From: Lycocorax pyrrhopterus obiensis
Taxonomy: Eukaryota; Chordata; Aves; Passeriformes; Paradisaeidae
DNA: 64,000 nucleotides
NCBI GenBank assembly: GCA_014706295.1
Contig: JACSVZ010000022.1
Span: 10,806,830 to 10,870,829 of the forward strand
Direction: 5' to 3'
The translations under genes were made by a program, and so were the position numbers. Positions 28,326 through 64,000 of this stretch are shown here, piece after piece (positions within the stretch are counted from its first letter, which is position 1; each line of letters opens with the position of its first letter). Under the pieces are notes generated by a model that was not told the DNA's origin, did not search any database, and saw nothing but the letters and a program-made list of their open reading frames with translations.

Positions 28326-28712
28326 CTAAGAAATCCAGGTAAAATCCTTGTCGTTCTCCCCAGAGTTGTCCTGCTCCTGTGGGGAGTCGACATCTTTGTC
28401 ATCATCTAAAATCACATCATCCTGTGACATGCCCACGTCATCCTTCCACTTGATGTCGTCCTCGTCTCCCATCTCCTCGTCTCCTTCCACTTTGATGTCG
28501 TCGGGGTCTTCCATGTACTGCCCTTCCCCGGGGTAACACTCGTCTGGGGACCCTTCTCCCCCGTTGTGGTCCAGGTGCCCGGCGATGCCGCGGCCGGAGC
28601 AGTCGGCACAGACGCCGTGGCGGCGCGAGCCGTGCTTGATCCCCACGCTGGCCGCCGACATGAACACCCGGTTGCAAACCTTGCAGACGTATTTTTTATC
28701 TTTGCTGTGGAC
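28326..28712 (-). CDS. ZBTB46: ZBTB46 terminal coding exon
   Basis: Begins [13 protein letters not shown], continuing finger 2 into an atypical Cys/His region ([12 protein letters not shown]). It then turns strongly acidic and ends at a TAG stop. The GC-rich 5' half stands out against AT-rich flanks. Confidence 0.95.
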   Translation of the reverse strand, partial: VHSKDKKYVCKVCNRVFMSAASVGIKHGSRRHGVCADCSGRGIAGHLDHNGGEGSPDECYPGEGQYMEDPDDIKVEGDEEMGDEDDIKWKDDVGMSQDDVILDDDKDVDSPQEQDNSGENDKDFTWIS

Positions 28713-31700
28713 CTGGAAAAGAAGAAAGATCACAGAGGTGAATGCCAGTGGAGATGGAATGAGAGCTGTTCTCATGTCCTTGCAAAGGCAAATCCACAAC
28801 TGCAGCCTGAGATCACAACTGGCTTCCACCATGAACTCAAACCCCCCACGATTAATTCAACCCAGCAATGATGACACAATGGAAAATCCTTTGGGATTGC
28901 CTGTTCATCATCACACTCATAGTTCTGAGAGGAACTTTCATCACAATTTTTTTTCTTCCTTTTTCTCTCTGTTTTTCTGGGGTGCAACAGCTGTATCACA
29001 CCCACCACCAAGAGGAAAATGTTAAAAAGAAAAAAAAAAGCAATCCACAAGCACCAGTTCTGTGCAGACCAGAGAAGAACAACCCCAATCAAACCAGTGT
29101 TAATCATGGTGATACAGAGGTCTCTCTCCTGGATCCCACTGCTGTCCAGAACCAAAGAACAGGAGCACTGGGAATGCCTCCTGTATCTCCCAAAAAATGC
29201 ATCTGACTGCACTTCTCACCTTATTTCTGACTACTTTGGTTTGACACAAATGTTTCTCCTCCATAACTCATCCTGCAAGAATCCTGGGCATGTGGAGCTA
29301 TCACAGAATACGTGGCCAGTACGGCAAGCAAGGAAAATGCTCTGCAGGATACAAGAATTCACTTCCAGAGTCAAACTGCACTATTCAATGAGCAAAATTA
29401 CACACTTTGAGAAGCACAAAACACCTGATTAAAGGTGAAATCTGTCCCTGGCCACTTTTGCCCTGCATGGAAGGCAAGCAGCTTGTTAAACCACTCAGCT
29501 GCTCCTCTGCCAAAGGAAATCAGAGCAGTGAGAATTCCCAAACTCCACCACAAGGAGCCTCATGAGGTACTTTCACTTACACATATATATCTACATGTAA
29601 AATGCATATTGATTTTATTTATATGTAGTAAAGTTCAGCTGGAAGAGACCCATGACAATCTTCTGGTCCAACTGCCTGACTGCTTCAGGGCTGCCCAATA
29701 CTTATTATAAATGTGTATCTTTCTTTTCTATATTTTTTTTTCTTTATTCTTTTATATGTTAACACCACACGGGGACAGCACAGGCACTTGATGCCCTGTG
29801 TCTGCCACTGAGCCTCAGGAGAGACTTCAGGAAGTGGTGTAGAAGCACACAAGGATCCAGTGCCCGTGGTTTGGGGTTGCTCTGAGCAGCCCAGCAGCCA
29901 CCAGAGCCTTGGGTACATATCACCAGTCCCTAATCCTTTTTAACTCGTTTCTTCTTTTCATGCTCACAACAGCCTGTGGGAAAGGTTTTGCTGATTAAAG
30001 TCCTTCTTTTTATTTTAAAGCAGCTGCCTGGATGCCTGCTCCCTGCTCCTGCCTCAGCATGGGATCACCAGCTCTCACCACCTGATTCTCCACAACCCTG
30101 CGCTCCGGAATACTCAGCTGAGCTAAAGCTCTTTGGGAAGAGGACAAATTGACCCATTGTAGCCCCTCAGCCCTCCCTACTGCAGGACACTGGCTCAGGC
30201 TCTGTGTTGCACCAGTCCCAGCCGTGTTCAAAGCCTGTGAGTGCCTCTGATGTGCTCTGGCTGCAGGTTCCCCTGCTCCGAGCCAGTCCCCACGACATTC
30301 TTCTACTGCATCAAGCAAAGGCATTACATTTTATTACTTTTTTTAAAGCAGTTGGACAGGGCTGCTCAGAGTCATCCAGCAGGATCTATAGGTATCACTC
30401 ACTTTCAACTCGTACAAGAATGATTTTCAGGCATCAAAAGCTGAATAGGAGAACAGAAGGTGGTCAGGGGTGCAGAATAAGGGCTAAAAGAGCCATATAA
30501 AAAAGAAATTATAAAACAAGTACTAAACCAATTTGTAATTATCACAGAATGGTTTGGGTTGGAAGGGACCTTAAAGCTGATCTAGTTCTGACCTCCTGCC
30601 ATGGGCAGGAACACCTTCCACTAGAGCAGGCTGCACATCTGTTAAAAAACTGATCACCTCTCTCCCTCTTTTCCAACGCTGACAGTTCAGTGAGCAGGTT
30701 CAAAGTGAGCCACATCCCTGGATGCAACTGAACAGAAATTAATCTTATTCCCTTTACTGCCAAATTAGTATTAAACACAGAAACAGCATTTGGCCCTCAG
30801 TATTGTAGAGTGCCATTAGAAAGATGATAGGCTAACTGATTAAATGCCAATATCCCAATGAAGAAAAGGGGAAATATGCTGACAACATCCTAAATTTATG
30901 AAAAAAATATTTTAAAAAGAGGAAGGTCTCAGAAATAAAACGCTGGAGGTAACCAGCTGGCACGACTGGGTGTTCCCTGCTGCAAAACCAGTAACAGATC
31001 TCGAAACTCGTGCGCTTGCAGCAGGACTGAGCTCACATTGGGATCGGCCTCCCCAGCTCCAGCGCCCCAAGGAAATAAGGAAGGGACATCTCAGGCAGCA
31101 GGCAGTGCCCAAGCAGATGGCTGGGGACTCATCTGAATGGAGATGGGAGCAGGGAAGGAAGGGAAGGAGATGGTGGGGGTTTGGGCACTGTGGAAATTGT
31201 CACACAGGGCTCCAGGATCCCGGTGTGGGATCCGGGGCATTGCCGGTGGTGAGCTGGGCCTGCTGCTGGAATCATTGCCTAGAAACTATCTGCTCTGCCA
31301 CAGTACCACCTCTACACCAAGCTTTGAGAACCTCTTTAGGATGGCAAGTGACCTCCACCCTGAAAAGAAAAATAATCAAAGTTTGGCTTAAAATGTTGTT
31401 TCTGGAGAAGCTGTGAAGAGCCAGACAGCAGCAGCAGCCTTGCAGTCAGAGCTGAGCAGCCTCTTTAATAAGGTGTAACAGTATTTTTGATAACTAAGCA
31501 CGGCCAGACCAGTGTAGCTTTGCCTCAAGTTCTTGCTGAGCAATGTATTTTAAAGCTTTCTGCACCAAGTCATAGAATTACAGGATTGTTAAGATTGGGA
31601 AAGGCCTCTAAGATCAAGTCCAACTGTTTCCCCAGCACTGCCAAGCCCACCACTAAATCATGTCCCCAAAAGCCACATTTACAGGTTTGTGAAACCCCTC

Positions 31701-34700
31701 CAGGGATGGTGACTCCACTATTGCCCTGGGCAGCCTGTGCCAGGGCTGAACAACCCTTGCAGGGAAGAATTTTTTGCTAATATCCAACCTAAACCCTGGA
31801 AAGCCTCTAGCTGAGCTTGGAGAGCAGCAGGAGGATGAACAGGCAGCCAGCCACAAGGTCTTGGAAAAGCAGGGAAAAAAGATATAGGAGAAGCCTTCAG
31901 ATGAGCCCTGTGTGGCAAACAAAATCCAGACTTAAACGAGGTGAAGCTCCTGCTCTCTTTACTCAGAACAAAAGGGCTGAGTCCCCAGCACTGCCCTTAC
32001 CAAGGTGTGGCGCTTCATGTGCTCCCGGCGGGTGAACTTCTTCCCACAGATCTCGCAGGGATAGGGCCTCTCTCCCGTGTGGGATCGCATGTGTCTCTTC
32101 AGGATGCACTGGTGCATGGCTGAAAAGCTGCAGTACGGGCACTTGAACTTCTTCCTGATGACTGTGAACTCGTTGACTGCAAGAGAGAAAGCAGAACACG
32201 CAGATTAATCTCAGAACGTCTCAAAACAGTCTTCTCGTTGACTATTTCACTATTAAATCAGTTCACTGTGAAATCACACCCTCACCCCTTAACCAGCTAC
32301 ACATTTTTAATCCTTTTACTGTATTACTGCCCATATATTATTAAAGCTAAGAAGTTGAGTACCTCCATCAGAGTAGCTTTTGAACAAGTTGACACACAAG
32401 CATTTAGCAACAGCCTGTTACAGACATCGCTTGCTAAAGGGAAAATGAAGAGGGCTGTCAACCTGCTAGAGTTCTGATTTATTATAAGGGATTATCTGAA
32501 ATATCAATATCTAAAATGCTAACAGTACTACTTGTGGAAGAAGCAGGGAGCCAGGAACAGAAGTCCACGAAGGCGGCACCCCAACAGTGCCAGTGCTCTT
32601 TATGGGGTGATGCGAGAACATCATCACACACCCCAGGAGCGTTTTGGTGAAGGAGCAGAGACCGAGGATGACCCAGAGGAAACAGGACAGTTACAACCTT
32701 CTCTACATTATTCAGTGACACAGGGACAGTGCCACACACAAAATACAGCAGTGAAAACAGAGTATTTGCTGCTCACTGAGGGCACCACCCACCCACGACA
32801 AGTTTGAAAGTGACTGTCCACAGTGGAGATCCTCTTGTTTCTCCTTCATTCTATTGCTGCCCATTAGTGTGTTAATTTTCACCCACTTTTCTCCTAATTA
32901 TTGCTATTTCTTAGAGCAATATATTTACATAACAAGGAGGGGGAAAAAAGAAAGCAAGTTCTGGTTAATCACCGTAACTTATGTGTATGTAAATGGCTCC
33001 TGGTAAAGGAAACAGTCCATGGAGGAGAGCTGGGGGAACAGGGGAATGCCAGACCTATTCCCTAGCTCCTAACAGACCCAGAACTCGGCAATAGTTTTAG
33101 AAGTTTAATGAAACATTACAAATATAATATATATAATAAATGCAATATATAATATAAATGCCCTACTAGGTGTGTGCACAGTCCACACCCTGAGTATGCC
33201 ACAGGTAATGCCCTGGAATTACACTGTACACTGAAAAATGGTCTTTTTAAAGAAAATTGGTAAGCCCACATACTCAGTGCCATTTCATGCCAAATTTGTG
33301 GGCTGGTTTTTTTTTTTTTTTCCCTTCTGCTTTTAAAATTGACTTTGTCTTGTATATCAATACAGGTGAAACAACATGAAAAGTAACTACATTTGTCACT
33401 CATGTAGAAGTGCAAACCAGCTGGCACTACTAAGAGACACCTTTAAATAAGGTAACACCCTCCTGGGTAATCAGAACAAACATTTCAACACCAGCTCATC
33501 TTAGAAAATGAATTTTAAGTAGTTTTCTATTGTTCTAATACACACTAAAAGCATGACTCAAGATCTTAAAAGCTGCTGAGATATAAAGTTTATCTTAGCA
33601 TTTGTTTTGACTACTCAGAATTAAAACACATCCTCCACACAGATAACGTTGTGGAAGAAAAACTTCCTTTGATTATCTAATCAAATCTTCCTTTGATTAT
33701 CAGTTTGCCTTGGATCTAATACTCCATTAGATTGGACCTGTGGTGGTCCAGCCCACAGCTGCTTTTTTTGGGTAGCTTGGTGTTTTTTCAGCCCATTTGT
33801 AAAGCTGTCAAGAGAATTTCCCAGCCCACAGGGAAAAAGCCCCAAACACCTACTCCCTTGGGCCATGGCTGCCACACAGACACCAGGGAAAGCCAATGGT
33901 AAGGAATATTTTATTCACCTGCCAGCAAAGCTCACCCACTGCAATGGGGCAGTGAGAAATGACTCTGCACTGCTTTGGGAACCTCCTGGAGGAGATGCCT
34001 GAGCACAGCCTGATGCCCAGAGCTTTGTGCAAGCTCCACTTGTAACATCTTTCTTTTTTTTTTTAACCATTAGAATATGAAAATTCTTTGTCTTTTATAT
34101 TACAGGAAAATACTTTTTTTCCTTTATTTTCTCCTAAGGTTTGAGACTCCCTCATCTATACACTCAGAGGCAAGGAGCCCACGTTCTCCTACAGCAGGTA
34201 GCAATTTCATGATACAAAGCTATTTATTGTAAGTACATTTCCAGTTGATTTTGTAAGCACTCGATTTTGGTGACAGGCCACACACACACTTGTAACAACC
34301 TCATCACTAAGGAGTGCAGACAAGGTGAGCAAGCTGTAATCTGGGCACGGGGAGTCAAGAGGGGACACGAACCCTCCTTCCTCCAGCGCTGCTCCACACA
34401 CAGAGCCACTGGAAAACACTGACTGGAGATCCTGACAGCAACCAGATCCTGGGATCATGAAGAAGAAGTGCTTTAAGGACAGAAAACCACTAAATCCCTT
34501 ATTCCTACATCGCCGGGTTGTACCTGATCCTGCTGCTCCCTCAGTGACCCGGTGCCTGCTCCCGTTTCCTGCCCATGTCTCTCCCTTCCCTTCAGGGCTG
34601 AGCTGCTGCAAAGCTGAAAAGGCAACAGCCAACGTTGGGTGCATGACCTGCACCCCCAGCACGCTCCTCCCCAGCCACCTGCTTCCAACACATCCATGGA

Positions 34701-37700
34701 TTTCCAACAGCCTATTCCTGACTCTGTCCAATTCCAAGATCCCTCGCGCCTGCGTTCAGCTTAAATCACTCAAACCCAACATTTTCAGCTTCTGTATTTA
34801 AAAATACTCACAGAACACTGTTTGCAGCTATAGTTTTATTCAAAACTATTTTTGCACCAAATAGCCACATATTTAGTTCGGGTATCTACAAAAAGAAACA
34901 CCTGAAAACCAGCAGCATTGTCAGAAAAATAACTGTATTGCAGAGTTAACATTTTCACACTCCTGTTAAATATATGCACCCACAGTACATCTATTTAATG
35001 CACAAATACCAGCTTTGGTATGAGCATGATCCTTTGTCTAAACGACAATATTTTATGGAGCAGCATTAAGTGTAGCAGCATTAAGGTCCTAAGAAATCAT
35101 CTTTAACACGATCATCAAGGTGATAAACAGCAGCGCCACGGATAAAGAGCTACTGGACACAGCACCAAGAAATGGAGAAGGAAATAGAAACAGTGCCACA
35201 GTAAAAATCTGTGTACTTAATGCCACTAAAATATTTATGGAAATGTGTGTTTTTAAAACCAACACAATAATGCTTGGGAAAAAAATCTTTGGTACTGTCA
35301 GCTCAAGTAACTTATTTCACTGAGGCTGTTAAAGGAAACAGGCTCCTACATCCCTGAGAGTGAAGGAAAAGCACTAGTGATGCCTGATAGAGCTGCACTG
35401 GATTAACTCTGTAAACTGGCAGCTAGTTAATAATCACTGAAATACTACATTCTTTGGGTTATTAGAAAGAATTCACAAACTTCAGGAGAATTCTTGTCCG
35501 CTAAATCCTCGTTACATTTAAGGTTATAAATAGCAAGGTGCAATTTAACTGTCAGACTCACACCTCCCATCAGCTTCCCCTGCCATTTCCTAACAGTAAA
35601 ATCCTGCTTCTAACACCTGTTATACACAAACCCAATAAAGCTCTGCCCTGTGATACCCTTCAGTTCTAACAATTTAAAAAACTTAGTCCTGATCCTGAAG
35701 GGAAGCACTGGAAGTTCCCAGTGCTGAAGTCAGGAAGCACTCTGATGTATAGGCCAAGGAAAATACTACTGAAACCTTTATTAGAGACAGCATTGACCTG
35801 ACTAAAGAAAAAGAATTCCGTGTTGAACTAAATTCTAAAATACAAGAAAAATGAACAAACATGAAACCTCATTAACTATTATCATGTAATGAAACCTTTT
35901 AAAGTTTGCTGAAATGGCTTTTGCTGGCATCTTACTTTCCCAAGTCAGACAAATCCTTCCCTGCTGCTCCCAAATTTCCAGATAAGATTCATTGGGTTAC
36001 AACTTTGTTTTCTGGCTCAGCTTTCTCCTTTCTCACTTGCTGATTATTTAAGAGCAAAATAAATCATGAGGCAATTACTCTGACATCTGTGACAAGGGAA
36101 GCTGACATTAAAAACTACACACATTCACAGACAGCCGAGATCTCCGATGCCAAAGATGTCAACGGGAACAAGAGCAGAAAAAATGAACCTGACTTCGCAA
36201 AAACCATAAAATTTAAACCCAAATGATTAAAGTGTACTACGGTGATTACATAGGAACTTATTCTCAATTCTGACTGCAGCCTGCTCAAATGAAGGGTAAG
36301 AACTAAGCCAAGCAGGGAAACTCCGGCTTCCCAGCCCTGGCATGGCATGGAGCTGTCTCCCTGAAGCTCTGACTCCCAGCAGGGACAGGTGGAGCAGAGC
36401 TGCACCAGAACACACCTGTTCCTTCTCCACAAGCCCAAGGGCAGCAGGAACTGATGGGCTCTCTCATTCACCTTTCCACAGGAAAGGGCTGGGGAAGAAG
36501 CTCCCCACTAAGTCCACATTGTGCACAACTAAGTATTTCTCATTTTCTGTCTCCCTGAGATGCAACAGTATCATGAGAAAGAACTTCCCTGAAGAACTCC
36601 AAAGAACATTTGTAGAAGTTGGTTTTTTTCTCCTCAGCTGTCTCTCACACTGAGGAAAGCAACCCCACATGCTGACAAGCTGTGCTGCACACAGAGCATC
36701 TGGGAAGCACTGCTCTTAATTATGCTACTTTCATTTCACAGTTACCATAATCTAGTTTTGTATGTAAATATATAGCAAGAGACACAGAAATATTGAATCT
36801 TTTTAAAAAATAAGTGAATTTCATAGAATGAAATAGGCATTACAGATTTCTACCCACCAGGAACAGCCATTACTGATTTTGTATGCACACCCCAAGTTCC
36901 AATTCAATCTATGTAAAGCCTCCTTCCTCTGCTTTAACACCACCACACTCAGCCTGGCTAACTTAATTACAGTATACAAACCAAATGAGTCACAAAAATG
37001 TATGGAATCCCTGAAAACCACAGCCATAGCCCAAGATGATTTTTAAAAAAAGCCCTGAAAGTACTGAAATATAATATCAGTAAAATATGCAAGCCATGCA
37101 ACAACTTTCAAGCCCAAAAAACATACCCTATTGCACATATCAACAAGAAGCATGTTTTTCTCCTTTGAAAGACATTGAAAATCAGACTATACAAACAGCA
37201 ACCCAGTGCTTCCACAGCTCCTAAGTTCACAGTGAAAACCCCTGGAATGCCCAAATGGTCTAATGGACAGAGCACTAGGGAAGAACTCAGAATTGAATTC
37301 TGTTATTAATTCTATTGCCAGCACTTTCAACAACCTGAGGGATGTTATTTTCCTGAGGAATTGGAGGAAAACATCACCATTTCTTTTATAAAGCACTTTG
37401 AGATCTACTGATAAGGCAGTTCAAGGTAGTGTCAGAACACAGATTGAGCACACCAACAAAACAGCCAAAGTGCCCGTTTTATGGACCCAAAAAAATTATC
37501 TTTGCCCAAAAATTGCACCAAGGCTGCAGTGACACAGCATCTGGAACCAGCACAGCATCAACTGATCAGCTCTGGGCAGTTACTCTATGGAATTACACCT
37601 GTGGAACATTTATTTGCAGCACGAGAACCACGGCACAATTTGCTTTTCCTAGTTCAAGGAAGTGTCTCATATACAACAACAGCAGCTATGCATCCTCAGG

Positions 37701-40700
37701 ATCCTCTCTTGGTCCTACACTGTCCAAAAGCTCCAGCCCAGCCAGGTGGGCAGAGCCCAGGTAACACATTTTCACGTGGCTACTGAGGTTCTTCTGGGTG
37801 CCGAAGCCCTTCCCACAGCAGAGACAGACAAAGGTGCGCTCGCTCGAGTGCACGGACAGAAGGTGCCGGTTTAAGTCTGTCTTGTCGCGAAACAGCTTGG
37901 CACAGTTAGGACACTGCATCTTCTTACAGTGGAAGTGGATGGTCTTCTCGTGCCGATCCATGTTGGATTTCAGGGTGAAGCTGGCGGGGCACTTGGAGCA
38001 CTGGAAGCGGGCGAGCTGGCCGGCAGGAACGCCGTCGGCGAGGCCGGGCCGGGAGCAGTCGAGCACGTCAAACGGGAGGAGCATGGAGAAGGCGTGCTCG
38101 TGGATGTGCTCCTTCAGCTCCTCAGCACACTGGAACACCCTCCTGCAGAAGCCACAGGTCAGCCTCTTGGCCAGGGCCGAATCCAGGAAGGTCCCATCAG
38201 CGGCGACGTCCGTGTCTTCTGACCTCGGGAAGCTCGCATCTGAAACAGAACCACGGATACGCACGCACGGATCAGCCTCTTCTCGTATAAAATAACAGCA
38301 GTTTAAAAGTGTATTTTCCTCTCTGCTTACCTGAGTCAGAGTTATCAAACTGCCAAAGTGCCAGCAATCCGTCGTAGGCGGCCTGCAAAGGAAAAGCACA
38401 GGGAAGTTAAGGCAGGCGCTTACAAGAACCTGTCCTGTAGGCAGAGCTCTGACTCCCATCGCTGCCACTGCCTTCACCCCTTCTCTAAGGGAGGCTCAAT
38501 CATTTGACCTGGCAACTCAAAGTGCCTTTGCAAACTTTCACTGCCAGAGCAGTGAACTGGGCTCTTATCTTGCAGGATTTGGTGTTTGGAAGACAGTAAT
38601 CAACATCCCCGTTTAAGTCTGGGACAACTACTCAGTTTCCATTCTCACTAAGCATTCGTAGCTCCCACTCAGGCCAGTGGGAAACGCTGGACAGAAAATT
38701 TTTAGTTGATACAATAGAACTGGAAAATTCTCCCTTAGCCCTCCACAGGTACTTTCCCTTTCCACACAGAAGAGCCTGTAGAACACAAACACCTTCTGCA
38801 TAGCTCCCTTTCCACAATGCCCTCTGGCACTGCTGATCCAAATTCTAAATAAAAGCTGAGTTTATCTTTTTTTTTTTCATAAATCCTCTGCGATATGCCA
38901 GTGTGTGGCAGATGGCAGCCCTGTATGAGGCAGAGGCGTGCTGCAGCCTCGGCAGGTCTGTGCAGACCAGCTCACTTCGCTCTACGGGGACTGCGAAGAA
39001 AAATCTGTGTTTCCATCCATTTGTTTAATAGAATTAAAGTATCATTCAAAAATGTTAAGAATAAGAAATGCTGCAGAAAGCTACGGATTTTAGGTCAAAC
39101 TTCTGACTTCTGTAATAGAGAGAGCCAGCCCACTTCTGTCCAAATTCAGACAGTTACAAAAAATCCAAACGCAGAACACCAGAAGTGAGCAATGGGTAGC
39201 TAAGGCCTCACGCCATTATTATATGCTAGTGTGCAATGTTGTGCAAATGAAGGGATTGACAATAAAAAGGGCATTTTTATTTAAAAAAATCCAGCGGTTT
39301 TTGAACAGAAGTTCTGTTGAGGTAAGGCAGAAAGACTAAAATTGGGACAGCACCAGTCCTGACCCTTAGGCAACTTCTGGTTTTAAAATAACCTGTATTT
39401 TTTTTTAAAAAAGCTCACAGATTAAAGTATAAGGTATTAGATCTTTCAAAATACTCCTAACCGGGGAGGATTTGATCAAACAGACACCTTTGCATTTCAA
39501 CTTCTTTGCATTTCTGCCCCCGTTCTTACCTGGGTTGAGGAAGGCACCTCTCCTTTTATCCCGGTTTCTGGTGACATTTCACCAGAAGAGCAGATCCTGG
39601 GGGGGCTCTGAGTGGCAAGGTGTGCTGAAGGCAGCGGGGGAGATGGTGCTTCCACTTTGCCATCACTTTCACCCCTTGAACGATTCGAGTTGGTGCCAGG
39701 CCCTGGGGAACACAGGAAACGAATCTCACCCACGTGAACGAGCACCAGCTGGTGGCTTTAAAAACGGCCTCGCAAAGGCAGCGCCCCAGCACTCGCAGCT
39801 CATCTTCTGTCAGTGGGAGGGAATGCAGCAGGACTGGGATGCCAGGCTTTTGGTCTTTCTGGTTGGTGGGTTGTTTTTTTTTTTTTTAAAACCAGCCTCC
39901 CCACCCAAATGTCTGTGTGTACTGGAGTGACATCGCAGGGCTCGGTCACTACAGAGTCCGTCGGGAGAAAGAAGCACAGTGCAGCACAAATATCCAGAGC
40001 AATCACATTTCTCTTGGAGAAGCACCATTCTGAACACAGACATTTCCATCTTTCAGGAATGTACACGCAAACTTCATTCCACTAACTTTCTTGAAAGTTT
40101 ATGTCACAGGTTCAGATCTCAAGATCTGTCCGTGGTGGTTTATTTAATATCGGACTGTCAGTCCTTGATCTCAAAGTGCTTTACAAAAGACGGGAAAAAG
40201 GATTCCTGTCACTCTATATTTAGCAAGGATGGAAGTTCAAATATTTGTACAAAACTGTTCAATTATACCTGACAGTCATTACAGTCTAAAAATCTCCCAT
40301 AATTCAAGAGGAAAACAGGCTGTGTCTGGCCCTCGCCTACACTGTAGCAACAGCCAAATGGAAAACAATATTCCAGAAACTGCCCTGAGGATCAATGACA
40401 AAGCTAAATACAAATAAAGACTGTGTCATCAATATCAGTGTACATTATAAATTATTATACAAACTTTAGCACACGCCTTGACTGAATATTGGAATGACGT
40501 AGTGAGCAGGTTGTTCTTTTTGAAACGCAAGGGGGCAAAACCAGAAGCAAATATGGCATAAAATAAACAAATTCATATTTAAAGCACTCTATGCTCTAAA
40601 GGCTTTTTCATTTCCAGCACAAAAGAGTCTGATGGCAACCTCCAGGCATATAAAAAACATGCTCTTTAATGCAGCTACAAATAACAAGCCACAGTTTACA

Positions 40701-43700
40701 CTGTCTGAATACAATGCGCTGTGATCTGGGTGACAACAAAGCACTCGAGTGAAACCACACCAAGGTTTTGTAATGTGAACAATCCCAAACCTTACTTTTT
40801 TATCAGCTATCAAAGGAAAATCTGCTCTTGTACCATGAGCTGGATGTTTGATTTACTTTCCTCTGCTTTGATGGCAGATCGATATCTTTCCTAACTTAGT
40901 TAACTCTATTCAGCTGGGATAACAACGCTCCAAGGTTTCCTTCAGGTGCTGCTCATCTGTTGGTGTTGTCATTTAAAAGTAGGACAACAAAATGCCAGGA
41001 ATTCAAGATAGGAAAAATTCAGGAAAAAAAGGAATCTATCAGTATTTCCTGTTAGAAACTGCTACCAGTAATCCAGCTGTACAGGTCAATAGCAGAATTC
41101 CTGCCTAGACAGCCACACGTTCCTTTTTTTCACCCCTGAACATCCCAAACTGATTCAAACTGCCCCAAAGGCATCTCTGGGTTACACTTCTTTGAACTAA
41201 TGGTATTTTAGCACACAGTAAAGATAAACCAGCGGGGCCTGGCTTGATGAATTCTTTATTAGCACCATCCCAGAGTTCCGCAGGTTCCTAAAAATCTCTG
41301 CACTTCTTAAAGCAAAAATTAAGGCTAATGAACGAGCAATGAAATAGAGCAAGGAGAAGCAATAAACTATCATCCAAGGTATACAAACACACAAAGATGT
41401 ACAACACAACAAAGATGAGTTTTCAAACAATAATCAGTATTTATTTGGTTTCAACAACTGCAAGTAACACAAGAAGAGAGAAACCCACACCAATGACCCA
41501 CACTTTGTACACAAGAATGCAGATTTACGTCCATTCTGACTTGTACTGTGAGAAACCTTTTTCCCTCCTAAACTTGTACTAAAATGAATTTTAATCAAAA
41601 GTATTTTAACTTCTAAATCAGGAATCAAAACCACTTTCCTTCAGTCATCTCTGCACACAGAAAATGAAGCAGGGGTTTAGCAATATTTGTGTGAATACAG
41701 AATTCTCATGACAACTGGACAGTAAACTATTGTGGAAAAGAGAAAGGCAAAGTCATTATATCTCATTTAAAATTGCATCCATTCTCCCCTAAATCTTCTT
41801 TTATCATGTACAAAAATTCCACACCAAACTGAATACCTTTAACTTCTTCCTGGGAAAGTTGACCACAGTGTAAAATGTATTCCTTAACATCCAGTGCAAG
41901 GATAAATTATTGGCTCCAATGAACCACTAACTAAAAATAACCTATTAGCTGGTTTGCCCAAAAGAAAAGGCCTCTGTGTACCATGTAATCACTTGGACTG
42001 GAAGCTTCATAGGAATTGCTTCTATAAACAGTTTCAATTGCAACAGGGTAAACAGGAAAAGCCAAACTTAGCCATATAAAAAAGCCTTCAAATGTGCTAT
42101 TCTGAAATGTGGAAGTCGCCCTTTAAGGGAGTTGGTCCCCCCCACGACCTGAAACTTTTCTTTTTTAATGAGAAAGCAAGGATGTAAACGAACCACCTCA
42201 TTTTCTAATGAATACTAAAATTCTCGTTCTCTTGATTATACTTGGCAAAACCAGCTCAAAACATTTGACTGAAGCCTCTGAGACTTCTGGCCGTGTGATG
42301 TAACCGTGCGGAACAATGCTACCAAAGTTCAGGCTCATAAATGAAATAAGACACGTTATTAAACCAAGGAGCTCTGCAGAGCAGCTCTGCTGGAGTGGAA
42401 ATCACACAACAACCACCTGCTTTTAGAGACAAACCAAGAAAACATGGCAAGACCAGGAAAACTTTCATGATGTCTTATCAGGAAGGCACCCCCAGCAACA
42501 ACCCAGGCAGGTTCAGTAACCAACAGTTCCCCAGACGACCTCGGTGTCACCCATGAGTAACTCACACATTTTTTTTCTGCAAAATCTGTGTGTTCCAGGT
42601 TTCTGACAAGCATATGAACAACGTCAATCTTGATCACACATCATGAACATCAAACTCTCAGAGCCCTTCAGCTGCAGGTTATCTGGCAACTGTGCTACCC
42701 AAATGGCAAGATATTTAAGTTTTCCCTTCTGATTTTAAATGAGTTTAAACTGGTGAACTTCAGAAATTCACCATAGTGATACAACACCCCCCCACACACA
42801 TTCTGGGCTTCATTTTCCACCAGCAGAATGTCAAGTTCATACCTCATATGATCATATAATGAATTAGTTAAAAAGAACACGAGGTAAAAGGAAAACCTTG
42901 AGGTATCCCCTAACTTCTAAAACAGGATGAATTATGTGGAACAGCAAGTGAAAACTTTTAATGTGTGCAGAAACTTGGAGAGTAATATCCCCTTTAGAAA
43001 TGGCTCATCCAAATTTGAAACATGTCTAACATCCTCTTTGCATCTGTCCACCCCCATTAAGTCTTTTTTCTTCCAGAAAAAAAAACCAAAACAAAACCTG
43101 AATACTGCTCCTTGAGGCAGTTATGTACCGCAGTGCTTTGTAAGAGAAGACAATCCAGTGATAGCAGCCAAGATTAAAAAACACTTCACTTCTTTAAGGT
43201 CAAGAGAGACCGATCACTTATAATCCCTGAAATTAGCGCATTTCTTTTCAAATCAAGACAGATGAAAACCGCTGGGTTTGGTTGTCTTGTTAAATTCAAT
43301 CTTCTTCATTGTGCTCCTGCCTACTCCCTCCTCCTTTTTTTTTTTTTTAATATAACCCAGGACTTAAAATGACTCAACATCCTCAAATTGTTTTTTAAGA
43401 AAAATGTCAAAAACACCTACAAAGCCAGCACCAACCTAGACTGTGCTTTTACATCTCCACAATCTTCCTACCACTTGCTTCACTGTCATTTTATACACTG
43501 AAAATTCTCATCAAACTTGATGTCCCGTTGTATTCAGTAATGACCACTTAAAAGGGAATTGTATATCACAAGATCTTTTTCAAGTTATTAAAATAAACCG
43601 ATACCTGTGAATCTGAATAAGATGAAAGAAAAATATGTCTCTTAACTCCCAGCTTCTATAAAAACCCTCTTACCAGGCCAATGCCACATCCCCGACTGCT

Positions 43701-46700
43701 ATGAGAGCTACAGACCAAGCAGGAAGTCTTCTTTTTGACTTGGGCATTTCACTTTGCTTCCATAAAGATGAGATAACTGAAGCTCAGCTGAATGAAATCC
43801 AATAGCGAGAAGACTGGAAAATAAGGACCTCAAATACAGGCTGGACAGGACCTCCTGAGCCATGCCACCCCTTAGTGAGCTATAAACCACCCCCTTTTCT
43901 ACATGTATCAAGCTTTATTTTAAATCCAGCTGGTCTCCTGCCTGCACCATGCCCATCCCCAAACTCTGCTTCTCAGCTGGTTGGGCAATCTCTAATTTTT
44001 AACCTGGATTTATGACTGCTTCATACACATTTATCTTTACGTCAAGTGGTGCTTTAGTTTTTAAGTAAAACCTAAAATCCTCCAATGAGGAGAAGGATGA
44101 TGGATAGAGGCCAGCGCTGTCATTATTCCAATTTATCAAGGCAGGAGATGAAACTGCTGATTTCACCCATCAGGAGTCACAGATCCGAACCCGTGGTGCA
44201 TCCATCACCCGCGGTCACGCATCGATCCAGGCTCCCACCCATCCTGGTGCCAGCTCAGGGCACTCTGCTCTCTGCACCCAAATCCTGCCACTGAACTGAG
44301 CCACATCTGTTCTGTTCCACTGCAACTGAGGGATTTTCAACCATGGAGCCCAATCTGAACTGTCTAAATCTGATTTAAGTGGAGATCCTTCGGGAAGTGA
44401 GTTACTGTGAAAGAAACCAGAACCCTGCACCAGCCATTCCCCACAAACATTTAAGCTACAGAATAAGGTACAGAAACTTCAAGGTTTTTGGATTTTTTTA
44501 AAAACAATCCCACTGTTCAGACATGAGAAGTGAAAAGAGACACTAAGTCTGACACTGCATTGTGCAGTTATTTCCCTTTGTCACACAACTCCTGTGACCA
44601 GCTGGCCACTTGGATGGGGCTTGGAGCAACCTGGTCTAGTGGAAAGTGTCCCTGCCCATGGAAACAGGATGATGTTCAAAGTCCCTTCCAACCCAAACCA
44701 TTCTAGGACTCTATGATTCATTCTCTAATTCTATGACCATTAAAGTTCTCTATCTTTTACCATTGAAGAAGCTAAAAGAAAACAGAGTAATAGATATCCC
44801 TAAGTGAACTTTTCATCCTATTTACCTGATCAGTTTTCTCAGCATAGATGAAAATAAACCTTTTCTTCTGGAAATTAACATGTAGTACTCAGGAAGCTGC
44901 TGCTTGCTCTAGTCTAGCTCACAAATGATATATCTTCTCAGATTATTACTAAAACACAGCATTAATAATATATCTCTTTCTTTATGCACTAGAGAATGAA
45001 GCTGCAATAAAGGAAACACAAAAACATGCTGAAAAATCAGCTGTCCACACCTAATGGTTCACATCAGCTGTCTCCAACAGATCACCAGAAGAAAAACATT
45101 CATTTCCAGGTGCAAGTATAACAAAATCAATAGCTGCTCATTACTTACAGGTCTAAAATTAAACTGCAAGAAGTAAAGATCATGCGATCTACAACACCCC
45201 AATTGTTTCCAAAGACGCAAGAGCAACATTCAAGCTGTTCAACATCAATCAAGTTTGGATTCAAAACGCTTCCCATAATGACTCAAATACTTTGTATTTT
45301 GTTTGTAAGTACCATTGTGCAAACAAGCAAAACAGAAATCTGAGGACAAGTGCTACAGGCTGAATATTTTCTTCTATGACTTCAGCAGTTAACATTAAGG
45401 TTGGATCAATACCAGACAAAAGTTTCCAAATTCTATGGAAAGTGGGATTAAGCAGGACTTAAACCTGGATATAAACACAGCAGCAGCAACAAACGAGGCG
45501 GTGACCTGTATTTTCTTCTCACTAAAGATTTCCCTTCAAGTGTCAGTAAACAAAAAAAAAAAAAAACCCAAAAACAACTTAAGAACGCCAACTTACGGGA
45601 GAGTGAGTGTGTGCCTTTGGGGAGGTACTCGAAGAGCAGCGAGCTGTCCTCGCCCAGCATGTCGGCTTTCAGCGACAGCAAACTGTTCTTACTCATCAGA
45701 GCCGCGCGCAGGTTGGCGACAGTGGCGGCCTGGAGCGCGTCCTCCTTGTCCGGAGTCAGGGGCTGATGGATGTAGCTGGATTCCCCGCCCAGCAGCGCTT
45801 CCTCCACGTTGGCGTAGGGGTCCGGCCGCTCCACCCTGCTGTCGGAGCTGCTGGGCTCCGTCCCGGCCACATCGGCACCTGCGGGAGGGAAGATGCTGTC
45901 AGAGACACGGGAAAACTCCGGGCACCGGGAGCAGGACCATGCACCTGCCCCACTGTGCGTCTGGGGAACACAACCAGGAATGCAGAGACAATTATTTTGG
46001 CTTTGCTTTGCACGTGGGAGTGCTGCTTCTCATCCCCCTTTTCCTGCCTCACAGCTGGGGGGTTCTGTTTTTCCAGCCCGTTCCCTCCTGCCCCACCAAA
46101 TGGGCTTCAGTTCAGTACCACACGCTACGAAGGCAGGGCCGAGGGAGGGGATGTGTATTTTATCCACAACCTGGATAAAAGTATTTCTTTATCTTAAACT
46201 AAGAATTCAGGATGGTTTGCTAGTACTGAAATTACATTCAAAGGTTTAAGTTGTGTTTTCTCCCTAATTTGACACTCCAGTAGTCCAAATTTTCACTCTT
46301 TCATTTCTTCCCCACAATGCAGGTTTTGAGAAACACAGTAATAAACAGCCTCTAAAAGTGGGGCGCTGAGTATAAATCCCTTGGGGTCACCTACTCTTAA
46401 AAAATACACAGTAACCAGTGGTTCCCAGCATATAGCACAGGGTGGGTTTTATACAGAAGTGATACAGTTAAAAAAAAAAAGATACGGATCAGCCACTTTA
46501 CAACATGTAACTACAAAGAAACTGTATAAAAATACAACATATTAGTATAAATATATCAATTACTGAACCCAAACAAACTAAAAAAGCTATGATATGGTAA
46601 ATTCCTTCCTGTGAAAACACAGGGGGTTTTTTTGTATTTTTTGGGGAGGTCTAATTGAAGAGCCTCTTTTGTTTGAACTTTGACTCTCTTATCAGCTTAA

Positions 46701-58700: not shown

Positions 58701-61527
58701 AGATGGCAAATATGGGGAACCCAGGAGCAGCTCAGTGTCCACACCTCCCCCCCACCCTTTTTCCTCATGGACACGCTGCTCTCTGCCAGCACAGCCAGCC
58801 TCTGAGCCTGTTCATTTTGGACAGCAAGAAGTGTTGCCATTAATTTTTTCCTTTTACCAGCACTATTGGAATATTGAAACTCTTCCCCCCAGCCACCACC
58901 ACTCAGCTGCCCTTTTCCCACCATCAGAACCACCTTCTTTATTGGAAGCTGCATTTCAGACAAGATTTGGAACAAATAATTTGATGTGCCTGCTGACGTG
59001 CTGTCTCAGCACTGTGCTGAGTCAACCCCCCGAGCCATCTTCCTCTCATCTGCAAACAGCCACTGCAATTTAATTCCTTAACAATTAGGAATTAAATAAT
59101 CTAAGTTTCATTCAGCTTCCAGTAACACAAGCTCTTCTATTCTGCACTATTTTCAGTAAAGACACTCAATCTACACCCAGCTTTCCAAGAGGCTCAGAGC
59201 TGCAGCTGTTTCTGCAGTCACTCTAACATGTCTGGTTCACTCCAGGTACCTGTCCAAACCCACACCCCTCAGACAGTACAAGTGATCGAGCTGTTTTTAT
59301 GGGATGCCATGGAAAATGAAAAATAGTTGCATGAGAACAGAGACCAGGCAATCCATGCTGAGTCTTCACTCAAAACAAGGATAAAATACATGCATCGTAA
59401 AAATGAGATCCTTCATAAATCACTGTTATCTTAAATTATCTCGCATTTTTCTCCTGACTGACGTTGTTTAGATTTTATCATCAGCTAATTAGAATAATTA
59501 CATGCAAGCTTGCTGCAGCAGATAACCATAAAACATAATAAATCCCAAGACATTTGCAGAGTTACTGTTCAATGAAAACCACATTTAAACTCCAGTATGT
59601 GAGCAACTTCAACCTCCTTTTTCAGCCCATAAAGACTTTTAAGACTTTCAGTACTCTTTGTATTGGTTTTTTTCATCCAAATTTGGCAACATAAAAGTCT
59701 ATAATCTCACACACCCTTCTCCTGGCTGACTTGGATTCTGGTATGCAATGAAACACAGGCTAACTCACAGCACAGACTAAGTTCTTGAAGTCAGCCTGAG
59801 AGAGTTTACTAACACACTTCCTTAAAGTCCTTAGAAAAAAACACAGAACTCCTAGTTCAGAAGCATTCCTGAATCTATTTATTGCCACTGATTAATGAAT
59901 CAAATGGGACAGTTATCTTGAGACAAAAAAAATAACTACTGAAGATTCATGGGAAGTCAAGAAAACAATTTTCTCGCTGGCTACACACTTTAAACGCAGC
60001 CACTCGTCTCAGACCACAAGTAGTCACACATCAAAATACACTTGAAGGCATAGTAGTGACTCAGAAAAACATGATGTTCTTGAGAGTTACTAAACACTTA
60101 TTCTGCCATTACCAGCAATAAGCTGTGGTGGTTTTCTTACCCAAGAGAAAGTGATACCTGAATATCAGGAAATTCTGAAGATGGTATCGGTAAGACTAAA
60201 TTACACCTGCGTGTGTGGTGTAATTACATCATCAATATACAGCGCAAGGAAAATTCTTCAACCTTGACATCAATGTGCACACCTGCTCAAATAAATTCCT
60301 TTAACCTTTTCTCTCATTAATTCCAACAATTAGAGTGGTGGTTTTGGGGTGATTTAGGCTGTTCAAGGCCAAAACAAAACTACCACTTTCACAGGAGAAT
60401 CAGCCTCCATCGAGGCTCCTGACTGAACCACACAGTGCTTGGTGCTTCTGAACAGCTGGCAACACAAGTTTCTACATTTTTCTATTTCTGGCAAGCTTCT
60501 ATTTCAGAGGCTGATAAGATCATCCCATAAACAGATCTAATTAACTCAAGGTTTTCAGTTTCATCCCCAAAAACTGGAAGAATGACTTACCTGGGTCTCG
60601 ACTGCTGTACGGCCATCCTGAGGCAGGTAAAAGGGACAGCACGGGAGAATTTGCCCTGCTGTCATCCTCCACTTGCTGCGTAATATGTCTCACAGTTTCT
60701 TTGTTTTTCCTGTTCTTCCTGCGGCCCGTGGGCTGCCAGCCATCCCCCACTCCTTGCTCTGAGAACCCACTCTGTATTGCACTATCCTTGGCAGGATGCA
60801 GCTCACCCCCTCCGTAATGGGATGGCGAGACCTGCTCCTCTTTGATACGCAAAGACCCATAGCCCATGTCACTAGCCCAGAGAGACTGGGATGAAATGTC
60901 TTCGTGGCTGTCTGGTTTTGGTTCTTGATCCTCTTTCCCATAACTACTCCCTCCCTCGTGGCAGCTGGCAATGGCTGAGTCCCCGGAGGAGTTTGCCGGG
61001 CTCGTTCTCCGAGCTAACCAGGGGGATATACTCCTGCCAGCCACGACTGCCGAAATCAGAGCGTCCGTGCTGCTGCTGGAAGGGGCTCCCAGCTCATAAT
61101 CAACCAGGTCCTCCGAGGCATCAGACTTGATGCTTATGTCCAGAGCTGCTTTGATGAAGTTGTGACAGGCCTGCACGATGTCTGTCATCTGCAGGTAGCT
61201 GGCAGCCGACATCACCTCGATGACGTTCCTGCTGGTCAGCGCCAGGTGTGCAGAATACATGAAGTCAATGATTGCCTTAAAGCCCTGGGCGGTGACGATG
61301 TCCAGGTGGGTGACTGTGGCCTGGTCAGAGGTTTTCTGGACCTGGCAGTAGAGGGTTTTGAAGTAGCGGCTACTCCCCAGGAGAACGTTTTTGTGAGCCT
61401 TGAAGATCTTGCCCTCCACGATGATGCAGACGTCGCAGAGGATCCCGTGCTGCCTCTGCTCGTTCAGCTCCCGCAGCAGGTGACGGTAGTGGGAAGCAAT
61501 CTCCATATCTTCCTTTCGGTTATTCAT
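28326..61527 (-). CDS. ZBTB46: ZBTB46: BTB zinc-finger transcription factor, four coding exons
   Basis: In transcript order the coding exons are 61527-60591, 45878-45597, 32176-32001 and 28712-28326; their phases join to 593 aa (human 589). The N terminus [10 protein letters not shown] matches human. A BTB domain (about residues 10-130, with LCDVC and [15 protein letters not shown]) mediates dimerisation. A nuclear-localisation-like [10 protein letters not shown] follows, then two C2H2 fingers (first cysteine at about 419) and an atypical third Cys/His region, ending in an acidic tail with DKDFTW. In mammals the protein marks classical dendritic cells and endothelium and represses myeloid alternatives. 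The start has a weak Kozak context (C at -3, A at +4). The exon carrying it begins at 61560, so 5' UTR exons lie beyond the window. An alternative set of zinc-finger exons sits in the intron between coding exons 2 and 3. Confidence 0.95.
29631..29701 (-). mobile_element. CR1-like 3'-end fragment
   Basis: AGCTGGAAGAGACCCATGA, then TCTGGTCCAACTGCCTGACT, resembles a reversed CR1 tail. It is short and diverged. Confidence 0.6.
30541..30640 (-). mobile_element. CR1 LINE 3'-end fragment
   Basis: TCACAGAATGGTTTGGGTTG followed by GAAGGGACCTTAAAGCTGAT is the reverse complement of the CR1 3' end. It continues with GGGCAGGAACACCTTCCACT, a well-known part of CR1 in this orientation. Confidence 0.9.
31570..31802 (-). 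mobile_element. CR1 LINE 3'-end fragment
   Basis: A reversed CR1 tail of about 230 bases starts with TCATAGAATTACAGG. It carries CTCCAGGGATGGTGACTCCA, GGGCAGCCTGTGCCAGGGCT and TAATATCCAACCTAAACC in the expected order. It is truncated and non-coding. Confidence 0.9.
32001..32176 (-). CDS. ZBTB46: ZBTB46 coding exon 3 (C2H2 fingers 1-2)
   Basis: Encodes [19 protein letters not shown] and [19 protein letters not shown], joined by the classical HTGERPY linker. It is almost identical to the human sequence I recall. The acceptor is CTCTTGCAG and the donor TTG|GTAAGG. Confidence 0.96.
32177..37253 (-). other. ZBTB46 intron 2, part downstream of the alternative exons
   Basis: AT-rich intron with several A/T homopolymers and many minus-strand AATAAA-like words. 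No exon, RNA gene or clear interspersed repeat was recognised between the cassette flank and coding exon 3. Confidence 0.5.
37254..37415 (+). mobile_element. Old MIR-type (CORE) SINE
   Basis: The sequence begins with TGGTCTAATGGACAGAGCAC, matching the tRNA-derived head of MIR-type SINEs. It ends with ATAAAGCACTTTGAGATCTA followed by CTGATAAG, which is the family's conserved 3' tail. The middle is decayed. It lies just beyond the cassette poly(A) signal. Confidence 0.7.
37609..37614 (-). terminator. ZBTB46: Candidate poly(A) signal of the alternative ZBTB46 transcript
   Basis: TTTATT on the plus strand (AATAAA on the minus) lies about 70 bases past the cassette stop codon at 37686. It could end the alternative mRNA early. 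Confidence 0.4.
37686..38239 (-). CDS. ZBTB46: Alternative ZBTB46 terminal exon C: four zinc fingers
   Basis: Acceptor TTCTGTTTCAG is followed by a phase-1 open frame of 184 residues and a TAG stop. Finger 1 is CGFC-x12-H-x3-H. After a long Pro/Leu/Gly linker, finger 2 is CSKC-x12-H-x4-H, finger 3 is CPNC-x12-H-x4-H and finger 4 is CLCC-x12-H-x3-C (C2HC). Fingers 3 and 4 are joined by a VHSSERTF linker. The exon is GC- and CpG-rich in an AT-rich intron, as expected for a conserved coding exon. It ends in a short acidic tail. I do not recognise a known ortholog for this finger set. It lacks a start codon of its own and joins upstream exons in phase. Confidence 0.8.
38331..38382 (-). CDS. ZBTB46: Alternative ZBTB46 exon B
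   Basis: A 52-base exon with acceptor TTTCCTTTGCAG and donor TCAG|GTAAGC. It enters in phase 0, encodes [17 protein letters not shown] and leaves in phase 1, exactly as exon C requires. It is only 91 bases from exon C. Too short to classify by itself; the support is the signal quality and phase match. Confidence 0.65.
39530..39702 (-). CDS. ZBTB46: Alternative ZBTB46 exon A
   Basis: A 173-base exon with acceptor TGTTCCCCAG and donor CCCAG|GTAAGA. It enters in phase 1, the phase at which both the BTB exon and coding exon 2 end, and leaves in phase 0 to meet exon B. The peptide is Ser/Pro-rich and starts [19 protein letters not shown], with no ATG upstream in frame, so it must be joined to an earlier exon. 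It looks like a flexible linker between the BTB domain and the alternative fingers. Confidence 0.6.
40166..40240 (-). mobile_element. Possible MIR-type SINE tail
   Basis: GATCTCAAAGTGCTTTACAA is the reverse complement of the conserved 3' tail of old MIR-type SINEs. The remainder is too decayed to be certain. Confidence 0.4.
44608..44738 (+). mobile_element. CR1 LINE 3'-end fragment
   Basis: GGATGGGGCTTGGAGCAACC continues into GGTCTAGTGGAAAGTGTCCC, then CCCTTCCAACCCAAACCATT and the ATTCTATGA tail repeat. This is a textbook CR1 3' end on the plus strand. Confidence 0.93.
45597..45878 (-). CDS. ZBTB46: ZBTB46 coding exon 2 (linker exon)
   Basis: Phase 1 in, phase 1 out, so it can be skipped without breaking frame. 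It encodes the linker with SSSDSR, then [19 protein letters not shown] and [18 protein letters not shown], all close to human ZBTB46. The donor is CCC|GTAAGT. Confidence 0.93.
45879..50741 (-). other. ZBTB46 intron 1, part nearest coding exon 2
   Basis: AT-rich, no exon seen. It contains a possible old MIR copy at 47396-47522. The GC-richer open frames just 5' of exon 2 (about 45890-46200) show no conserved motif. Confidence 0.5.
47396..47522 (-). mobile_element. Possible MIR-type SINE
   Basis: ATCATTATTTTTAACTCCAT, then TTCTACAGCTGGTGG, and further on GCTCAAGGTGTCCAGCCTGA keep the order of a reversed MIR body. Divergence is high. Confidence 0.5.
50742..51530 (-). mobile_element. Old CR1 LINE 3' region, about 0.8 kb
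   Basis: A diverged reversed CR1 includes CTCAGCCTCTCCTCACACAC, GTCAAAGTCTTTCTTGGCCT, GGATCCTGTACTCCAAATGC, CATCCAGCAACTTGCCTGAG and TTAATGAACAAAGTC in the right order. It covers the end of the reverse-transcriptase reading frame and the 3' UTR, with many indels; nothing functional remains. Confidence 0.75.
51531..60590 (-). other. ZBTB46 intron 1, part nearest the BTB exon
   Basis: About 9 kb of AT-rich intron without recognised exons. A purine microsatellite lies at 54067. Enhancers may be present, but none can be identified from sequence alone. Confidence 0.5.
54067..54102. repeat. (GGA)n-type purine repeat
   Basis: A run of GAGGAGGAAGAGGAGGAGGA and similar units with occasional A interruptions, in a ZBTB46 intron. 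Confidence 0.8.
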
Positions 61528-61560: not shown

Positions 61561-64000
61561 CTGCAGGGGGAAGGAAATGACAGGATTACAAAATCCAAGA
61601 CAAGACTGAGACAAACCCCAGGCTGTACCAAAAGAAGCAACGGGTTCATCTGGGAAGAGTGCCACAAATACAGCTACTGCCTGCAATCCTCCACATTCAT
61701 TACAAAATGCACCTTACTTTGCCCAGACTTCAAATAATTGACGTTAAAAAGGACTAGATTTGAAGCCAATCCTCCAGTGGGTCATAACATCCCAGAGAAA
61801 CGTTTCTTGAAGTTACTACAGACTTGTAAGAAAACCCATCTGAAGTAACCGGAGAACAAGAGCTGTCAGGTTTTACTGTGAATTTGTTGGAGTTTGGTTT
61901 TGAAAGAGATGCTACACTTGAAATCATGCTCAGATGCCCACAGACTACTGAGGGGAACACTGTAACACATTTTCCTCGAGGGAACAAGCGTGGTGTGTAG
62001 CACACAGAAGAGGTGAAATCCTCAAACAAGGAGAGCTGATTTAACCCAGCATTTCCCTTGTTATACTGCCATGGAGGGGCTATAAACATGGTTCAAAAGT
62101 CAGAAGAGCAACAAGCAAATCCAAGACCACAGATCACAAAGTTTTAAGTCCTCACCCAAACTAACCTGGCAATAGATCACAACAATTAAATTAATGTTAT
62201 TTGAAGGTTAACTACTTACAAGCAATACTTGGCAACAAACGTTGTATCATTGGCTTTACATCTCCAAGTCCCCACAGCCACCCTCAGATACTGAGTAGAG
62301 AAATTCTCATGATCACCTAAAGAAAGGATCCTTATGACCAACATAAAGCTGAGAAAAATTCACAGCACTTTTGATCACTTTTCATAAAATTTGGCAGTAT
62401 TATCCAAAATAAAAGGCCAGTTAGTGCCAGCAGCAAGTTATCTTGTAAGTTATGCTCCAGATTATCCTCCTCTTACCCTCCAAAACAGAAAACAAGGTCC
62501 TAAATGTTGACAGTAATCAGCAGTGCTAGGATTTTCAGATTGAATTTTTTCCAGTTACTATCTTTGCAATTCCATATTTGCCTTTGACGCCACAGCTTTA
62601 CAGATCCTTTGGCATTCAATTCTGTCATTTACTCTAGGTTATACCACTTTTTTTGGAACTTACAATCAAGATTTATCTACCATGTAACAGTGTTTTAATG
62701 GTTCTACTAATTAAGAGCACCAAGGTGAAGAATATCTTACTCCTTTCTCTCAAAAGCTTAAAATTCTTTCCAATATAAAAAGTCCCAACTGTAGAATTGA
62801 TAGGAGGGTCCACATGTCAACACACAACTGTAAAATTGGACCCAGTTCCAAATGTTTTTATGTGCAGGCACACACATCAGAAGCCTGGATTTAGGCTACT
62901 GGTTGTTACTTATAAAAACAAAATCTCTGAGGTCTTACAGCCTTGAAGCACACACGGTTCAATGTTAGCACTGGCATTAAGGAGGCTGTTTCCAGCCTGG
63001 AGTACCTTTCTAACATCCACTGAGTTCACACACAAATTCAGTCCCATCTGCTCAAACCGGCTTGCAGCAGTGGGCAGCACAGCCGTGATTAAGGAAGTTC
63101 ACTTGGCACATGCAAGTCTGTTTCCTGGGCTGTGGAACACAGATCCACAAGCACCCTGCCCCCTTCCCCTACCCTGTGCTATTATTATCATCGGCAGGAG
63201 CAAAATAGCTGCAGTTTAGTCAACACTGATGGCTAGAAAAGCACCTCCAGCCCACAGAACATCCGCGAGCTGGGACCTCCTCCTAGAGAGGCACCTGATG
63301 ATTCAAAAGTTCAAGTTATGCAAGACTGCTTCGAGCTCCTCCAGTTCTGCAAGGATGGAGCTGCCTCTCTGCAGCCCCGGAAATCCTAATTTGCAAGGCC
63401 AGCTGGTCCCTGATCATTGAGAAATGTTTGCTTCCCTCGAGAGAGGAAGGACCATCTCCCTGCAACACAAACACGCTGAACTGTGTTCACCCACTTCAAA
63501 GGCGTGCAGCTTTTCTGCAGAATTAAGCACAAAATGCACAGAGAAGCCAATCTTTTTTTTTTTAATTGAACTGGAAGAGGTCAATACCAGTGCAGCTGCA
63601 CACACCTATTTACCACAGAAATCTGCCCAGAGACCTCAAACCAAATCCTCACTCAGACACCATCTCTGTCTCAAATAAAATATATCAATGAAAATCAAAC
63701 CAAGAATCAGGGTCAGGGAGTATGGGAAAATAAATAAATAAATTTTCAGGTGTTTGGCCTGAAAAGGTTGTGATGGCACCAGCCAGCACAGCATCTCTCT
63801 AATCCAGGCTCTGGAGGTGACTGCCAGCACTTCCCAACATCTCCATGTTGGAAAGAACCACCTCTTAAGGCAGAGTGACAGTTCAGTTTTGTCTTTATTC
63901 CAGAAACCACTACTGTGTCTACTTTTAGGAGTTGAAGAGTCAGCTTAGTCCCCTTAGGAAATATGAATTGCCACATAGGATAAAGTGAGTTGTCCATCAC
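61561..64000 (-). other. ZBTB46 5' intron, continuing past the window
   Basis: Sequence upstream of the ATG-bearing exon. No 5' UTR exon or promoter-like CpG cluster is seen, so the ZBTB46 promoter lies beyond 64000. Open frames here are short and unremarkable. Confidence 0.6.

Follow-up and report, generated by a model that had tools for sequence, protein, structure and literature searches.

Does the transcription factor gene ZBTB46 carry a single DNA-binding end, or does it have a choice of several? The question is raised by a 64,000-nucleotide stretch of the genome of Lycocorax pyrrhopterus obiensis (contig JACSVZ010000022.1, positions 10,806,830 to 10,870,829; hereafter the window), in which the intron between the second shared coding exon of ZBTB46 (E2) and its first canonical finger exon (E3) contains three further minus-strand exons, termed here A, B and C, that encode zinc fingers of their own. 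We consider it quite probable that A, B and C together form a second zinc-finger end of ZBTB46, in which exon C, as a likely composite terminal exon, decides the DNA-binding end that is joined to the BTB domain.

Three zinc-finger exons in phase with ZBTB46

The three exons lie where an initial annotation of the window had proposed them (Table 1), and their splice sites and phases agree with that proposal: AG precedes A, B and C, GT follows A and B, and a stop codon closes C. With a percentage-based position weight matrix applied to all 3530 minus-strand GTs of the window, the donors of A (CAGgtaaga) and B (CAGgtaagc) reach 11.2 bits, a score exceeded by one of the 3530. Exon A accepts phase 1, in which both E1 (end 60591) and E2 (end 45597) terminate; A joins B in phase 0 and B joins C in phase 1, and splicing either E1 or E2 to A-B-C leaves a frame that is open through to the stop of exon C. 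Because the ends of E1, E2, B and C1 (the portion of exon C retained in a hybrid isoform, see below) match the acceptor phases of A, C and E3, every exon combination named here is in frame. The E1-A-B-C path yields the predicted product of 571 residues with four zinc fingers, the first finger cysteine being residue 416. The E1-E2-A-B-C path yields 665 residues and shares 96% identity with isoform X1 of Parus major ZBTB46, a resemblance beyond chance (98% identity of exon A to entry P0002 from Parus; P numbers denote database entries). The canonical E1-E2-E3-E4 product (593 residues) is 99.5% identical to two Corvus ZBTB46 entries. The canonical C-terminal C2H2 fingers, the orthology to named ZBTB46 proteins and the BTB domain of E1 (Pfam BTB, 94.7 bits, E=5e-27, residues 21-127) identify the gene as ZBTB46.

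Exon C is single-copy in this 1.1-Gb genome (150 of 896 candidates scored), the match at this locus reaching 421 bits versus 49 bits for the next, a generic finger array; a second copy elsewhere in the genome was rejected, there being one full match only.

Homologues in other vertebrates

Searching a database of 5.8 billion proteins with residues 313-571 of the 571-residue model returned 138 matches (best E 4e-161). Most of the 120 that were listed are named ZBTB46, and these 120 include birds, turtles, crocodilians, tuatara, lizards, a snake, platypus, echidna, marsupials, caecilians, ray-finned fish and skates. A skate protein used as query added sharks and other rays; all of its 117 matches were listed, part of them being unrelated zinc-finger proteins. 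The window exons map on the homologues as E1-E2-A-B-C, A and B being too diverged to match in most fish and E3 being 97-100% identical in those fish, skate and ray proteins that have it. Among 277 database proteins fetched, an exact match to the finger-2 motif occurs in 116, of which 98 end in the alternative fingers only, 12 are hybrids and 6 have both ends complete. At least one ZBTB46 segment (E1, E2 or E3) is found in 116 of the 116, including some entries named otherwise by their source (e.g. 'hypermethylated in cancer 1' or 'PRDM16'). By this comparison exons A-C are part of the ZBTB46 gene, and the suggestion of the initial annotation that they supply a second finger end to one BTB domain is borne out by predicted proteins across jawed vertebrates.

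Among the 120 of 138 matches listed, and likewise among all 117 matches of the skate query, there was no ZBTB46 from a placental mammal or a frog that carries the module, although the skate query did list members of other zinc-finger families from both groups. A search with the canonical end provided a partial control for the placental absence, the best 120 of its 953 matches all coming from birds, crocodilians and turtles; no placental ZBTB46 of any form was displayed among the matches listed in any search. Lampreys, coelacanth and lungfish were likewise missing from the matches listed, no search having been aimed at any of these. The placental and frog absence pertains to listed annotated proteins rather than to genomes. 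From these lists we infer that the module would be ancestral to jawed vertebrates, that placental mammals and frogs would have lost it, and that it would be decaying in certain further lineages.

Predicted isoforms and two predicted exits from exon C

The isoforms considered here are database entries, mostly computer-predicted gene models, and they fall into four architectures: canonical (E3-E4), alternative (A-B-C, with four new fingers), hybrid (A-B-C1-E3-E4, with two new fingers plus the canonical ones) and insertion (A-B-E3-E4). The alternative and canonical forms are predicted side by side in Parus (X1, P0002, and X2, P0196), Hirundo, Caretta (X1, P0007, and X2, P0278) and Alligator, and the alternative form together with the A-B insertion in Leucoraja. 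In P0017 and other bird proteins, the sequence departs from exon C within the finger 2-3 linker and carries on into the canonical fingers. This junction occupies the identical linker position in 12 of 12 hybrids (ten birds and two rays, P0127 and P0128), and in the birds it maps to the end of C1. The junction codon specifies F (T+TC) in birds and L in rays, as expected if the linker codon is TGT in birds and CGT in rays (the latter judged from protein only). The insertion form is represented by nine entries (P0072, P0084-P0088, P0117, P0133 and P0134) from kiwis, a wheatear, a turtle and a skate. A Komodo dragon model (P0064) exits exon C after finger 1. The six proteins with a whole exon C plus E3-E4 (P0053, P0063, P0089, P0099, P0118 and P0130) are likely gene-model fusions, because extra residues bridge exon C and E3-E4; they are counted within the 104 non-hybrid proteins discussed below.

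One example of a composite terminal exon is that of the secreted/membrane switch of immunoglobulin mu, which has its own poly(A) signal and an internal 5' splice site to downstream exons. Exon C has the same two features, and both go beyond the initial annotation: its stop (37686) is followed by an AATAAA at 37614, and an internal donor at 37927 leaves phase 1 and would join E3 at 32176 in frame. Unlike the mu case, the choice in ZBTB46 would alter DNA-binding fingers, the donor lying within the codons of a finger linker. Exon C may thus meet two fates. Termination at its own stop and polyadenylation via the AATAAA would give the four new fingers, while splicing of the internal donor to E3 would give the hybrid. 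Competition between poly(A) use and this weaker donor may set the isoform ratio, which fits the strength of the donor (5.3 bits, versus 11.2 bits for those of A and B). All isoforms would have their BTB partners in common.

Conservation and predicted structure of the fingers

All four fingers are intact in 99 of the 104 non-hybrid proteins. In these 99, helix positions -1, 2, 3 and 6 read LSNR in finger 2 (99/99), DTDR in finger 3 (98/99) and TKNT in finger 4 (84/99), and fingers 2-3 and 3-4 are invariably spaced by 7 residues (99/99), the classical tandem spacing; finger 1 is set apart from the others and variable. Among 16 representatives, from shark to tit, identity to the window is 70-96% for finger 2 and 63-97% for finger 3. 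Against skate and shark, fingers 2-3 are 63-78% identical versus 25-32% for exons A+B, the rest of the module diverging while these two fingers stay conserved. Fingers 2-4 would form one DNA-reading array with a target other than that of the canonical pair, and the one gene likely gives rise to several proteins whose DNA recognition sequences would differ.

For structure prediction we aligned 55 sequences, namely the peptide of the window plus 54 proteins hand-picked for spread from the 98 with the alternative end (one damaged protein, P0009, is included, and P0011, P0023, P0041 and P0051 are not). The AlphaFold model contains four strand-strand-helix units, with a mean predicted local distance difference test score (pLDDT) of 70.7 and a predicted template modelling score (pTM) of 0.33; averaged over 10-residue blocks, pLDDT is 68-91 within the fingers and drops to 52 and 44 in the finger 1-2 linker. 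Foldseek returned 70 PDB chains at E<=0.001, with C2H2 arrays bound to DNA (ZBTB24, for example) among the top matches, and because the overall template modelling scores (TM-scores; ~0.2-0.3 by query) and pTM are low, the support extends to single fingers and not to their arrangement. Membership of exon C in Pfam PF18868 (three-finger repeat) is not claimed, the score being 28.2 versus a cut-off of 30.8 bits. Overall, sequence comparison shows exons A-C to be real and conserved as a second DNA-binding end of ZBTB46, for which more than two outcomes are predicted.

Alternative explanations

A number of observations weigh against a conserved second end governed by exon C. Apart from the low TM-scores and pTM and the predicted nature of most isoforms, the exact-motif filter omits relatives with an altered finger 2 (P0010, P0055 and P0090), and fingers are damaged or missing in 5 of the 104 non-hybrid proteins: those of the mesite Mesitornis (P0009), the kiwi Apteryx owenii (P0011, in which finger 3 runs into E3 in a different frame), the Chinese alligator (P0023), a pheasant (P0041) and a garter snake (P0051). 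The internal donor of exon C is only moderate, 189 of the 3530 GTs scoring higher. Furthermore, among 103 non-hybrid linkers, including that of the window (3 of 117 rows were unreadable), 51 have R, C or G at the critical residue, so that an NGT codon is possible there, and the other 52 have H, K, W or E, which makes an internal donor impossible at that codon. The donor at 37927 with its NGT-type codon is therefore not universal; with H in turtles and mammals and K in most spiny-rayed fish, there can be no such donor at that codon in these groups.

The weakness of this donor and its exclusion in those 52 linkers, together with the 98 of 116 motif-bearing proteins that have the alternative end alone, would suit a strict lola-like choice between two mutually exclusive ends, with the hybrid and A+B-insert models being minor or artefactual. 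Two mutually exclusive ends were how the initial annotation, with insect lola and broad in mind, had read the locus. Its first half, common BTB exons with alternative finger ends, holds for the sequence and the predicted isoforms; exclusivity is not supported, given the 12 hybrids and the nine A-B-E3 proteins. The hybrids share one junction between birds and rays, and one of them represents a cluster of 191 sequences at 90% identity (members not inspected); the insertion entries are spread from kiwis to a skate. We regard strict exclusivity as unlikely.

A markedly poorer account would dismiss the alternative forms as noise in splicing or as artefacts of prediction, with no function at the protein level. 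The reliance on predicted isoforms, the damage to the module in pheasant, garter snake and alligator, and the lack of a placental ZBTB46 with the module among the matches listed would all be in line with it, but noise would not keep the zinc ligands intact in 99 of 104 proteins that range from sharks to marsupials, nor, within those 99, the contact residues of finger 2 (99) and finger 3 (98), and we consider it very improbable. Least credible of all is that A-C represent a separate zinc-finger gene, whole or in remnants, nested in the intron with its own promoter and fused to ZBTB46 by the predictors, since the four of 98 alternative-end entries without E1 on which it could draw (P0009, named 'hamlet-like', P0060, P0067 and P0076) do have E2, and P0009 comes from a 13.6-kb contig that likely explains its missing E1, while exon A accepts the exact phase of E1 and E2, and 94 of the 98, from several vertebrate classes, include E1 and 92 both E1 and E2. 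Because these 92 include E2, the E2-containing form is, as far as predicted proteins go, the usual one and the 571-residue form minor; E2 is skipped in two of the 98 (P0006 and P0109).

Returning to the reading we prefer, a conserved second end of ZBTB46 with exon C as the point of decision, the damage in alligator, pheasant and garter snake suggests that the alternative end has been weakened repeatedly within the lineages that bear the module. The quail entry (P0050) is a hybrid form that dispenses with fingers 3-4, the very fingers damaged in the pheasant protein. A shift of isoform use between alternative end and hybrid is possible in Galliformes.

Comparison with known systems

In insects, BTB zinc-finger genes are well known to have alternative finger ends; we know of no worked-out vertebrate example, and none was among the papers listed in the literature searches. 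By analogy, the closest functional parallel of the ZBTB46 ends would be Drosophila lola, for which the available part of the report describes one BTB N-terminus with alternative C-terminal exons, most of them containing zinc fingers (some isoforms being C2HC), at least 20 isoforms, and splicing both in cis and in trans (PMC1947980). The two genes are alike in joining a single BTB N-terminus to alternative finger ends, whereas ZBTB46 differs in having about four architectures, one alternative module seen, and a hybrid of both finger sets.

The available parts of two papers present ZBTB46 (also BTBD4, zDC or BZEL) as a dendritic-cell transcription factor that consists of a BTB domain and a single finger region (PMC6600524, PMC13421333), and the mammalian gene is the same as ours in its BTB domain, linker and canonical fingers. 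In the available part of the second, the human finger domain is assigned to exon 4, no alternative finger end is mentioned, and RINZF is given as an alias (PMC13421333). The RINZF literature (gastrin CACC element) was considered as a prior description of the module and rejected; no primary paper on it was among those listed. In most papers RINZF presumably denotes ZBTB10, which fits the miR-27a titles in that literature. No description of an alternative finger end of ZBTB46 was found in the literature searched, judged by titles and abstract starts. The forms are already public as predicted isoforms and their sequences are not new; their meaning seems undescribed.

On balance we lean towards the view that the ZBTB46 of the jawed-vertebrate ancestor was a lola-like switchable factor, ending in the canonical fingers, in the four others or, via the linker-codon donor, in a fusion of the two, and that placental loss left mouse and human with a stripped-down gene. 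If so, a gene that marks classical dendritic cells would have a second DNA-reading end in birds, reptiles, fish, monotremes and marsupials that would stay hidden from work in the mouse. This would bear on avian and fish immunology, on how transcription factors acquire targets through splicing and polyadenylation, and on the lineage-specific loss of a regulatory isoform.

Features of the locus and minor observations

Table 1. ZBTB46 exons and signals in the window (window coordinates; phases as start to end).
Feature	Position	Strand	Phase	Description
E1	60591..61527	-	ends 1	start codon, BTB domain and linker, by translation
E2	45597..45878	-	1 to 1	second shared coding exon, 282 nt
Exon A	39530..39702	-	1 to 0	alternative end, 173 nt, without fingers
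Exon B	38331..38382	-	0 to 1	alternative end, 52 nt
Exon C	37686..38239	-	1 to stop	putative composite terminal exon: fingers 1-4 (three C2H2 and one C2HC) and stop
C1	37928..38239	-	ends 1	portion of exon C retained in hybrid isoform (fingers 1 and 2)
Internal 5' splice site	37922..37927	-		ACT/GTAAGA, finger 2-3 linker of exon C
Poly(A) signal	37609..37614	-		AATAAA, ~70 nt past the exon C stop; signal by sequence
E3	32001..32176	-	accepts 1	canonical exon, two C2H2 fingers
E4	28326..28712	-		canonical last coding exon

Exon E1 probably starts at 61566, residues 17-341 of P0002 aligning with 61566-60592 (tblastn). Many bird ZBTB46 proteins have a 29-residue N-terminal extension, the final part of which is in frame at 61566; no match to its first part (MSSAV, LEPSLL) turned up in the window, and an upstream ZBTB46 coding exon therefore probably lies beyond it. 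The plus-strand open reading frames at positions 1 to 22400 look like ZGPAT, LIME1 and SLC2A4RG, which we take to be the expected neighbours of ZBTB46. An Rfam scan of positions 30000-50000 gave no match at the gathering threshold.

Another GTAAGA donor is present inside E2, at 45692 on the minus strand (..ATGA/GTAAGA, phase 1), and an emu isoform (P0004) reads AALM/RPGTN, as if this donor led to exon A. Finally, the canonical C-terminus of skate and ray ZBTB46 (P0133, P0134 and P0127) contains a long repeat of DDHGEGPYP-like units.

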